DNA of 64,000 nt, taken from assembly GCA_002842435.1 (NCBI GenBank), contig PHCX01000006.1, positions 124,001 to 188,000 of the forward strand, read 5' to 3'. Position 1 is the stretch's first letter; every line of letters begins with the position of its first letter. The translations under genes were made by a program, and so were the position numbers. The notes beneath the pieces were generated by a model. It did no database searches. It was not told the DNA's origin and saw only the letters and a program-made list of their open reading frames with translations. This stretch comes from Betaproteobacteria bacterium HGW-Betaproteobacteria-1 (GTDB lineage: Bacteria; Pseudomonadota; Gammaproteobacteria; Burkholderiales; Methylophilaceae). Shown in pieces: positions 51,127 to 52,952 of the stretch.

Positions 51127-51154
51127 GTTTTACATAATATACATTATGCGAAGT
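51127..51154 (-). other. Chromosome-dimer resolution site dif
   Basis: On the minus strand the 28 bp read as a XerC arm ACTTCGCATAA, then the 6-bp centre TGTATA, then a XerD arm TTATGTAAAAC. The centre and most arm positions match the E. coli and Neisseria dif sites I remember (about 25 of 28 for Neisseria). XerCD would resolve chromosome dimers here under FtsK control, placing this part of the window at the replication terminus. It is also the left boundary of the element at 51127-52681. Confidence 0.9.
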
Positions 51155-51399
51155 CAAAGGCAGTGCGAAAATACGACAAAAATGTCGCATACTTTACGTG
51201 TAACTGGACACGTAAAGTTTTCTGGAAGCCCTGTCTGACCGCATAAACGAGTCTCACCCCTCGCAAGAAAACCCGCCTGAATCGCGCTCCGGTGAGCGCT
51301 GATTTGGCGGGTTTTATCTCCCCCTTTCCGGAAAAGTTTTCCATCGGTGTTTGATGATGGCGCAAGCAACTCGCGCCCAACCTTTACAACTGATTGGAG
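51155..51399. repeat. Element leader, copy 1 (structured non-coding region)
   Basis: This stretch begins at the dif site and ends at the ribosome-binding site of the 103-aa gene. It is repeated at 52682-52952. Hairpins: CGACA/TGTCG (51174-51187); CTTTACGTGT/ACACGTAAAG (51192-51217) with loop AACTGG; a two-level hairpin at 51268-51315 with outer AAAACCCGCC/GGCGGGTTTT and inner GCGCT/AGCGC; and GGAAAA/TTTTCC at about 51330-51342. The last 60 identical bases (51307-51366) match copy 2 exactly. It may be an origin, a packaging or conversion signal, or a 5' regulatory RNA. Confidence 0.8.
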
Positions 51400-51405
51400 A
51401 ACGAC

Positions 51406-51717
51406 ATGCGATACCGTACCAACGATGCACCCGATAGCAAGAAAGTCCGCATTGAACTGACGATGCGCCAGGTCAAGATGTTGGAAAGACTGGCCCAGAC
51501 CACCTTGCAGGAAGTCATGGACTTTGGCGAATACGATGGATTCACCGCCAAGGCACTGGAAAAGCTCTGTGACCGATTTTGGGATATTACCCATATCCCA
51601 ATGACCCCAGAGGAAGAAGAAGCCGCCACAGGTGATTGGGTGAAGTCGTTCACCCATAAAGACTTTGTCCGCGCGCATGGCTTCGACCCCTACGCAGGAA
51701 AGGAGGTCCAATCATGA
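51406..51717 (+). CDS. Element gene 1: unknown 103-aa protein
   Basis: Start ATG at 51406, six bases after GGAGA. Helical and acidic, with KKVRIELTMRQVKMLERLAQ near the N-terminus and TPEEEEAATGDWVKSF later; it ends GFDPYAGKEVQS. No known family is recognised. Its stop overlaps the next gene by 4 bp, so the three element genes form one operon. As the first gene of a tiny Xer-dependent element it could act in replication or excision control, but nothing in the sequence proves this. Confidence 0.75.
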   Translation: MRYRTNDAPDSKKVRIELTMRQVKMLERLAQTTLQEVMDFGEYDGFTAKALEKLCDRFWDITHIPMTPEEEEAATGDWVKSFTHKDFVRAHGFDPYAGKEVQS

Positions 51718-51974
51718 GACGTTCCGCGCTGCATGATGATGGCATCGGTGATAAAGGCTTGAGTGTGAGCAGCTTCGCCGAGCGTTTCAACCTTCGGATT
51801 GCTCATGTGCAACGGCTCTGCCGTGAAGGGAAAATATTCGGAGCACGCAAACACCCTCTGACCAAGCAATGGTGGATTTACCCGCCTGCAAAGCTGCTAT
51901 GCCAGCCAAGAAAGCGAAACGTCGGTGGATCGACCGTGAGCAGTTCCAGGTCGCCCGCCGTCGTGCTGGTCTAG
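51714..51974 (+). CDS. Element gene 2: excisionase-like helix-turn-helix protein
   Basis: 86 aa. SVSSFAERFNLRIAHVQRLC is a MerR/Xis-type helix-turn-helix, followed by a wing (GKIFGARKHPLTKQWWIYP), as in AlpA/excisionase proteins. The last ~25 residues overlap the start of the next gene in another frame. It probably binds the leader or att region to regulate the element's genes or direct recombination. It starts on the stop codon of gene 1. Confidence 0.75.
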   Translation: MRRSALHDDGIGDKGLSVSSFAERFNLRIAHVQRLCREGKIFGARKHPLTKQWWIYPPAKLLCQPRKRNVGGSTVSSSRSPAVVLV

Positions 51975-52519
51975 ACGTGGTGGATGCAGCCGACATGCTG
52001 GGCGTTACCGAGCGCACCATTCGCAACTGGGAGAACGGCACCTGTGCTATCCCGTACGCCGCCTTTCGCGTCGTCCGGCTGGCTGCTGGTTATCAACTCT
52101 TGGGCGATGAATGGGAAGGCTGGACGCTCTGGCGTGGCAGGCTGTGGACACCGGAGAACCGTAGCTTCATGCCTCACGAACTGCGGTATATCGCCAACTA
52201 CCTGTGGATGGCGCGGGATTGGATACGGGAGAGAAAGGCGGCTAGCGCCGCCGCTGCTGACGCAGCCAACCCCCCTATTTCCGAGGTTTCACCAGTGGCA
52301 GGCGCAAAGGCAAGCACGCCGCCCCCCGCTTCGCGGGTGCCCCCCGTCGTGTCGGGCGTCCGCCCTTTGCGGGTGCCGTCCGGTGGAACTGGAACGGCTG
52401 CCGGTCTACAGGAAAAACCCCTCATTGGTGAGAACGCAGAAAAACCGTCCCATTTTAGGACTATTGACGCGTCGCAGAAAATCGCGGCTAATGATGGCAG
52501 CTATCGGGAGGTGCTTTAG
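51899..52519 (+). CDS. xafT: Element gene 3: VC1465/XafT-family Xer recombination activation factor
   Basis: 206 aa from the ATG at 51899 (an ATG at 51869 would add 10 residues). The helix-turn-helix VVDAADMLGVTERTIRNWEN is followed by CAIPYAAFRVVRLAAGYQLL, WEGWTLWRGRLWTPENRSF and HELRYIANYLWMARDW, the DUF3653 pattern of phage and IMEX proteins. In Vibrio cholerae, XafT activates XerD directly so that recombination at dif needs no FtsK. The C-terminal ~90 residues are Ala/Pro-rich and low in complexity. Overlap with gene 2 is 76 bp. Confidence 0.85.
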   Translation: MPAKKAKRRWIDREQFQVARRRAGLDVVDAADMLGVTERTIRNWENGTCAIPYAAFRVVRLAAGYQLLGDEWEGWTLWRGRLWTPENRSFMPHELRYIANYLWMARDWIRERKAASAAAADAANPPISEVSPVAGAKASTPPPASRVPPVVSGVRPLRVPSGGTGTAAGLQEKPLIGENAEKPSHFRTIDASQKIAANDGSYREVL

Positions 52520-52653
52520 TTCAAATTTGGGCTGAAAACCCTCAAACCCGCATGGAATCTGGCTGCGGGAGCCTGTGGATAACTTTTTAGGGAAATCGGG
52601 TTATCGAAGGTGTGAAAATCGGTATGGCAAATCGGGCTAGAAGCCTTGTCGTT
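52520..52653. other. Element 3' region between xafT and the half-dif
   Basis: 134 bases with no gene. It contains one perfect DnaA-box-like sequence at 52574-52582 (TGTGGATAA, i.e. TTATCCACA on the minus strand) and several AATCGGG/AAATCGG direct motifs at about 52592-52637. This could be an origin or host-factor site, but a single box may be chance. Confidence 0.4.
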
Positions 52654-52681
52654 ATTGGGTTTGCTATACATTATGCGAAGT
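52654..52681 (-). other. Half-dif (attP-type site) at the right end of the element
   Basis: On the minus strand the XerC arm ACTTCGCATAA and centre TGTATA are identical to the dif at 51127-51154 (17 bases). The position of the XerD arm reads GCAAACCCAAT and has no resemblance to it. TLC-phi attachment sites likewise lack a proper XerD site. Confidence 0.85.
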
Positions 52682-52952
52682 CGCAGAATCCGTTTTTTAC
52701 TCCGTCATTGGATGCTAATTATGGACAAAAATGTCCGTTACTTTACGTGTAACTGGACACGTAAAGTTTTTCAGAAGCCCTGTCTGACCGAATAAACGAG
52801 CTTTACCCCTCCCAAGAAAACCCGCCCGAATCGCGCACCGGTGTGCGCACCGGTGTGCGCTGATTTTGCGGGTTTTATCTCCCCCTTTCCGGAAAAGTTT
52901 TCCATCGGTGTTTGATGATGGCGCAAGTAAGTCGCCAACCTTACGATGGAGA
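52682..52952. repeat. Element leader, copy 2 (remnant of an earlier element)
   Basis: Homologous to 51155-51399. The hairpin at 52723-52736 is GGACA/TGTCC against CGACA/TGTCG in copy 1. CTTTACGTGT/ACACGTAAAG at 52741-52766 is unchanged. The large hairpin at 52817-52876 has a duplicated ACCGGTGTGCGC and inner arms GCGCAC/GTGCGC. Similarity fades at GGAGA (about 52948-52952), the equivalent of the gene 1 ribosome-binding site. No element genes follow; the copy runs into the 3' end of the P-type ATPase gene, supplying its last codons and stop. Confidence 0.8.

Follow-up and report, generated by a model that had tools for sequence, protein, structure and literature searches.

The DNA analysed here, called the window, is a stretch of 64,000 nucleotides from Betaproteobacteria bacterium HGW-Betaproteobacteria-1 (contig PHCX01000006.1, positions 124,001 to 188,000 of the forward strand). 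It contains a 1527-bp element that lies at a dif site, carries three small genes including one related to xafT, and is interpreted below as a probable integrative mobile element exploiting Xer (IMEX). XafT is named in PMC9765430 as the XerD-activating factor of an IMEX of V. cholerae. The locus comprises the following features.

51127-51154, plus strand: dif and left junction (XerD arm 51127-51137, centre 51138-51143, XerC arm 51144-51154)
51138-52664, plus strand: the element, covering the 1527 bp from one centre position to the other and delimited by the attachment (att) repeat; an element of the same length lies at dif in contig L015
51174-51187, plus strand: hairpin 1, CGACA-AAAA-TGTCG, with a stem that covaries among elements and phages
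51191-51218, plus strand: hairpin 2, with an 11-bp stem, the loop AACTGG and a core common to filamentous phages
51268-51315, strand not assigned: a further inverted repeat upstream of the genes
51406-51717, plus strand: orfA, 103 amino acids (aa) with an alternative TTG start at 51394; fold predicted with low confidence
51714-51974, plus strand: small helix-turn-helix (HTH)-like protein of 86 aa, with ..GARKHPLTK.WWIYPPAKL conserved in an alignment of four
51869-52519, plus strand: xafT-like gene; translation from its first ATG gives 216 aa with an HTH and DUF3653
52654-52681, plus strand: right junction (half-site), comprising the centre and XerC arm without a XerD arm
52724-52935, plus strand: left end of a further, related element, left as a truncated remnant that includes hairpin 2 (52740-52767), identified by sequence comparison

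The left junction, described in the initial annotation as a dif-like 28-mer, reads directly as GTTTTACATAA-TATACA-TTATGCGAAGT (XerD arm, centre and XerC arm). Within the 2.50-Mb genome (10 contigs, 99.9% complete), the 17-base dif core had a single mismatch-free match; the remaining four matches had three mismatches, and one of these was the same site on the opposite strand. No better dif was therefore present elsewhere. GC skew and the orientation of the motif GGGNAGGG, which we take to be KOPS (the FtsK-orienting polar sequence), were profiled on C3:1-400000 (of 503,943 bases) alone among the genome's contigs. The cumulative GC skew peaked at 187.0 kb, approximately 12 kb from dif at 175.1 kb, and the orientation counts of GGGNAGGG were 13:0 to the left of dif and 2:16 to the right, pointing to dif from both sides, such that both signals switch near the site. 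The genome encodes XerD (395 bits, over cut-off) together with a second recombinase that scored 291 bits with the XerD model and was taken as XerC. Based on the unique exact core, the GC-skew peak, the polarity of GGGNAGGG and the presence of both recombinases, 51127-51154 is very probably the chromosome's dif.

The right junction reads ATTGGGTTTGC-TATACA-TTATGCGAAGT. The dif on the left keeps its full XerD arm, and the right site keeps the centre and XerC arm alone; structure, position and junctions of the element can thus be read from the letters themselves. The annotated second copy lacking a XerD arm is borne out as a half-site, but the exact repeat is 18 bp (51138-51155 and 52665-52682) rather than the 17 bp originally given. 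The window as a whole contained 64 recurring 18-mers at five offsets, three of which belong to the element locus: 1527 represents the att repeat, and 1549 and 1561 represent a shortened second copy. This copy and the double hairpin at 51174-51218 were both missed in the initial annotation. The copy occupies 52724-52935 of the right flank, is 89-95% identical to the element's left end, and would be what is left of an earlier insertion, as would happen if newcomers enter at the renewed dif; the element thus stands in a decayed tandem array.

The open reading frame (ORF) list gives proteins of 107, 86 and 216 aa between the junctions, in line with the three small genes annotated, and the assignment of the third to the VC1465/XafT family held: it passed the curated NCBIfam cut-off of NF040522 (93.1 bits, cut-off 70) and matched PF12375 (DUF3653) at 28.7 bits (cut-off 22.4). 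The 86-aa protein matched HTH_17 below cut-off. For orfA, family-model scans returned no family over cut-off, and the structure predicted from two sequences had a mean predicted local distance difference test score of 67.5 with no PDB match at E≤0.001. The ORFs of the element matched no replication, coat or recombinase family, in agreement with the reported lack of integrase, replication and capsid genes. Searches of the window's XafT against phage and plasmid records, of the element DNA against phage records and of its left-end DNA against plasmid records gave no match.

Related elements, empty sites and tandem copies

A profile built from five XafT proteins matched 32 of 187 host-family genomes at E≤1e-4. 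Eighteen of these matched at E≤1e-23 and are termed strong, none of them among the five genus-mates of the host; sites near the 14 weaker matches were left out. In 12 of the 18 strong carriers, dif and a half-site were found around XafT on one contig. In G199 and G219 the contig stops less than 50 bases from the XafT match. G202 contains both dif and XafT, but a half-site was not found; in G221 and G194, XafT and a half-site share a contig that lacks dif. In G169 (L133, G169:C1 at approximately 1.587 Mb), XafT lies 70 kb from the genome's dif with a half-site to its right, and was either moved by rearrangement or inserted away from dif. Among genomes of the same order, 17 had XafT at E≤1e-8, including the window's own (G000); eight others were fetched and eight were left out. 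The fetched genomes yielded dif plus half-site in four cases, half-sites on both sides with no dif in the stretch in G460, one half-site in G298 and none in G247. G234, from another family, has two XafT genes behind a variant dif whose XerC arm differs; the half-site that separates the two genes carries a copy of this arm, as judged by eye. A class-wide search found XafT in four of 369 genomes: besides G000 and G234, these were two members of the class that are not listed as the same order.

The proposed search for the same element in related genomes thus yielded 18 elements at 17 dif loci (12 host-family genomes, L015 and four same-order genomes). They measure 1433-2716 bp (median, 1713), and in each dif and a half-site bracket XafT; all 18 have one DUF3653 (XafT) gene, and all 18 right half-sites, read by eye, lack the XerD arm. 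A family of elements and repeated insertion at one site are therefore direct observations. Conversely, none of 94 dif neighbourhoods without XafT (sets of 80 and 14) had a second half-site. These neighbourhoods are stretches rather than genomes, since some genomes gave two; 15 show less than 2.1 kb to the right of dif, three come from carriers with XafT elsewhere (G169, G194 and G221), one is the second dif of G219, and that of G176 holds an inovirus. A chance repeat was rejected on the unique dif core, the 17 bracketed loci and the 94 neighbourhoods, and a pdif-like module on the lack of a XerD arm in the right half-sites.

A relative of the element was found on L015 (JAGXRL010000061), a contig filed under Latescibacterota that contains the window's left-flank DNA (89% identical), dif, a 1527-bp element and a remnant of its own. 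The two elements are 85% identical overall, ranging from 67% in orfA to 97% in xafT, so the element's history is mosaic. The presence of the window's left flank and dif on a contig of Candidatus Latescibacterota is most likely due to misbinning.

Gene content was examined in 109 ORFs from the 18 elements (at least 60 aa in sense, at least 110 aa in antisense). The genes that recur are orfA and XafT, along with the small HTH-like protein (which some elements did not show) and often a second HTH protein, which in L124 matched HTH_17 at 28.9 bits (cut-off 27). At E≤0.001, Pfam identified DUF3653 in 18 ORFs and otherwise helix-turn-helix or sigma-region-4 families only, with no replication, coat, Zot or recombinase family. 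The G2P profile built here, which has limited reach, did not match the elements. Of 27 PHROG families, 25 were listed; these comprised regulators, a Cox-like excisionase label in three ORFs, "tail assembly protein" in 18 of 109 and "terminase small subunit" in four of 109, and none of the 25 named a replication initiator. We read the last two labels as HTH similarity. A self-contained replicon was rejected, as these scans found no replication family in the elements. The two largest elements, L119 and L120, encode an extra ribbon-helix-helix-like protein (that of L119 judged by eye) and a cargo gene. Neither cargo protein, 332 aa from the minus strand in L119 and 212 aa in L120, scored over cut-off with Pfam or matched a PADLOC defence model at E≤0.01. 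In the defence-model scan, gene 2 and XafT produced weak matches only (mad1, 17.7 bits; RmrA, 20.5 bits), which we likewise read as HTH similarity.

Absence of the element from relatives was likewise observed directly. The element-bearing G031 and the empty G214 share flanks at 97.5% and 95.3% identity that meet exactly at dif in G214, and G137 (element) compared with G133 (empty) gave flanks of 95.6% and 96.6% and a base-exact empty site. The window's left flank matched three genus-mates (74-78%) up to approximately 35-75 bases from dif. No match to its right flank was found, so there is no base-exact empty partner at the window's own locus. The initial annotation would have been contradicted had relatives always held these genes; the four genus-mates in which dif was found lack them, and the base-exact empty sites belong to two other family members.

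Insertions were also found side by side, with two elements in tandem in G204 and remnants beside the elements in the window and in L015. The assemblies of G207 (L185/L186) and G220 (L200/L201) are split at dif, the contigs overlapping by 141 and 127 bp, as might result from mixed populations with two genome forms in the sample. In G219 a complete dif is present on each of two contigs (L198, G219:C37 1-232; L131, G219:C27), with left flanks matching only around dif; one site precedes the XafT gene and the other is near a contig end. The second site may represent a mixed population, contamination or a second Xer site.

Hairpins of the elements and filamentous phages

The double hairpin at 51174-51218 directly follows the left att site. 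Perfect hairpins of at least 9 bp numbered 20 in the 18 elements compared with one or two in five single-base shuffles. The 24-base core of hairpin 2, searched with up to three mismatches, was found in six of 187 family genomes, five of which had dif on the same contig. It occurred twice in G000 (element and remnant), close to dif in G163, G176 and G199, with two mismatches approximately 2.7 kb beyond dif in G202, and on a contig without dif in G194; the backward control gave one match, in G193. The exact core in IMG/VR was confined to five contigs (L376-L380), all five of them filamentous phages. Hairpin 1 varies by paired substitutions between elements and phages: among 12 distinct element and phage sequences (L121 was left out due to a deletion in hairpin 2), 69 of 72 cells of the stem pair, whereas 2000 arm swaps gave 43.5 on average and 64 at most, kinship among the 12 being uncorrected.

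Other elements have other hairpins. L135, L136 and L145 contain CCGGGT..GTAACACCCGG, a pattern accompanied by Zot in seven of 18 viral contigs and in seven of the eight with the loop end TATGTAA. L122a, L122b, L123, L124 and L125 contain ATGGGG..CCCCAT followed by GTAGAC or a sequence one base different; the strict ATGGGG..CCCCAT pattern had Zot in 16 of 19 viral contigs, and L377 and L379 hold both hairpin 2 and the ATGGGG type. Altogether, 12 of the 18 elements have a hairpin type also present in inoviruses.

All five of L376-L380 encode Zot and a G2P-type replication gene according to our own profiles. Because these profiles had been built partly from contigs later marked (L376, L378, L379, L380 and L243), and because the G2P profile missed the Pfam-positive replication initiators (Reps) of L390, L398 and L383, a separate Pfam run was performed. 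This confirmed Zot and Phage_CRI in L376, L378, L379 and L380 and the coat protein Gp8 in L380, and placed Phage_CRI and Zot of L390, L398 and L383 over cut-off; L377 was judged by profile only. XafT had no match in L376-L380, of which L380 alone looks complete, with a 121-bp terminal repeat. In G176, a member of the same bacterial family, a prophage that follows dif is 99.98% identical over 4885 bp to L378. There the XerC arm is followed by hairpin 1 and then hairpin 2, and the arm lies 45 bp from hairpin 2 versus 36 bp in the window.

Inoviruses and XafT elements were also found next to each other. L432 (7831 bp, minus strand) has an att core at one contig end, followed by an inovirus (Zot, 69.8 bits; REP_ORF2-G2P, 41.4 bits), a half-site, a XafT element and a half-site at the other end; its phage part has no XafT match and terminates in a half-site without a XerD arm. 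L243 has an inovirus (Zot, REP_ORF2-G2P) to the left of dif and, to the right of dif, two tandem XafT elements each approximately 1.56 kb long. In L261, dif is followed by an inovirus (Zot, Rep_trans), after which come a half-site and, overlapping it, a XafT-like frame. Separately, L417 (G015) is an inovirus prophage at dif with att-like sites approximately 6.5 kb apart, a right site with the centre GCGCCC and a different hairpin, ACTTGCAGTG-GTACTAG-CACTGCAAGT. Zot was detected in 18 of 187 host-family genomes, 12 with E≤1e-6, using a model that matches four of 14 controls. Inoviruses thus occur in the host family, and helpers could arrive by infection.

Proposed mechanism, alternatives and known systems

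We consider it likely that the element is a TLC-phi-like IMEX reduced further, without a Rep, that is moved by XafT-activated XerCD and replicated and packaged by an infecting inovirus. The minimal IMEX suggested by the initial annotation is supported by the insertion at dif, the dif-like half-site, the lack of any recombinase family of its own and the empty sites in two family members. The attP of TLC-phi has a degenerate XerD site (PMC4246890), and the insertion into dif of a circle with an attP of this type would give the layout at 51138-52664. By analogy with TLC-phi, a circular form would recombine with the host dif through an attP comprising the centre and XerC arm of dif without a XerD arm, the element's XafT would activate XerD, and host XerCD would perform the exchange, leaving a whole dif on the left side. 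Since that dif is kept, the resolution of chromosome dimers should be unaffected and the site would stay open to additional copies, which would explain the tandem pairs and the shortened second copy. Given an inovirus-like left end (XerC arm and double hairpin) and the lack of any replication, coat or assembly gene, we propose that a helper phage replicates and packages the element, its Rep and assembly machinery acting on the hairpin region. The hairpins common to filamentous phages would accordingly have a role in cis, with XafT activity, excision, circle formation, and replication and packaging in trans all presumed.

Several points weigh against this proposal. Zot was found in none of 18 carriers, the window's genome included, using a model that matches five of 14 control genomes, and among the 18 strong family carriers Zot was recorded in G194 alone, on a short contig. 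No free element circle was seen, and XafT and orfA scans of the viral collection, which reach close relatives only, gave no match. XafT proteins are 39-42% identical between genera and XerD activation is assigned by family membership, while the best PHROG of the window's XafT is phrog_1668, labelled "tail assembly protein". The attP centre of L377 and L378 is GCGCCC or close to it, compared with TATACA in the element. L119, L120, L127, L144 and L146 have no recognised hairpin and L148 has a near match only, and the function of the hairpins as replication origin and/or packaging signal is itself proposed from sequence.

The absence of Zot from most carriers would suit a self-sufficient IMEX that involves no phage, is excised by XafT and XerCD, and spreads by natural transformation or homologous recombination of the dif region, as would the mosaic of the window and L015 elements (67-97% by segment) beside left flanks of 89% identity, a pattern that recombination would give. 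We nevertheless regard this as unlikely, since it leaves the covarying inovirus-type hairpins unexplained and offers no account of amplification without a replication gene. A decaying, immobile remnant of a larger XafT-bearing filamentous prophage is less probable again. A shortened copy does adjoin the element, L432 can be read as a single 7.8-kb phage with XafT, and L243 and L261 have inoviruses beside XafT genes; however, the half-site divides phage from element in L432, close relatives have empty sites, and several genera share the small size, the order of the genes, the two junctions and an open xafT frame, unlike random decay.

The fixed position at dif, and the capacity XafT could have to act on XerD in trans, would also fit a domesticated regulator of dimer resolution that the host keeps at dif. 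Such a regulator would hardly be expected to be distributed patchily, with 18 of 187 family genomes carrying strong XafT and none of the five genus-mates doing so, to occur in tandem or to leave exact empty sites in close relatives. We consider this reading highly improbable, and the candidate of a host-domesticated XafT was rejected on its patchy occurrence and the empty sites.

Extending the preferred interpretation, in which an inovirus mobilises a Rep-less IMEX, we tentatively suggest, with slightly more doubt than confidence, that natural filamentous-phage satellites lacking both Rep and capsid are widespread. At 1.4-2.7 kb these would in effect be integrative phagemids, comprising XafT, a few small DNA-binding proteins, half an attP and a hairpin matched to the helper; at least three classes of hairpin would track different inovirus groups. 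A phage of the L432 type, with a TLC-type half-site and no XafT, may in turn need the satellite's XafT for its integration, making the relation mutual.

The elements would mark a lower limit for an integrative satellite, with replication, coat and recombinase all borrowed. XafT, known from a cholera satellite, is tied to a family of elements in several bacterial families of one order, and the inovirus-type hairpin suggests that they probably spread between cells by riding filamentous phages. The elements also illustrate how selfish DNA can occupy dif and yet leave a whole dif behind. As material for further work they offer variants of XafT and half-sites paired with their dif. They also offer conserved inovirus hairpins, and whether these serve as origin or packaging signal is now directly testable.

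Both the IMEX and XafT were known before; in 2019, Midonet et al. reportedly described a wide distribution of XafT-bearing IMEXs among beta- and gammaproteobacteria. What appears to be new is a set of Rep-less elements with helper-type hairpins, which were not found in the literature searched, where most subscription journals were missing. Among the systems available for comparison, TLC-phi is about 5 kb in size, RS2 is the replication region of CTX-phi, mini-phages and phagemids of M13 and f1 are laboratory constructs or variants that are not integrative, and the Xer-flanked modules of Acinetobacter are located on plasmids and have two-armed sites. RS1 is not known to carry XafT.

TLC-phi, a satellite phage of Vibrio cholerae, resembles the elements in its integration at dif, its attP of centre and XerC arm with a degenerate XerD site, its XafT, its lack of structural genes and the multiple copies reported (PMC4246890, PMC4439123, PMC9765430). 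Unlike the elements, it has an autonomous replication module with its own initiator of the pfam05144/pfam05155 type (PMC4439123). RS1, the satellite of CTX-phi, is likewise a satellite of a filamentous phage, as proposed for the elements (PMC11389934, PMC4439123), but it encodes an anti-repressor and is in essence the same as RS2 (PMC4439123). Mini-phages and phagemids of M13 and f1 demonstrate short DNA in filamentous particles, and the packaging signal of f1 is a hairpin (PMC10480500, PMC10175506). Small gene units between Xer sites also occur in Acinetobacter, where they contain resistance genes (PMC7399989). Inoviruses that integrate at dif, among them CTX-phi and VGJ-phi, rely on host XerCD there, as proposed for the elements, but are complete phages with other attP structures (PMC4246890). 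The L378-type phage in G176 nevertheless has the order from att site to hairpins in common with the element of the window.

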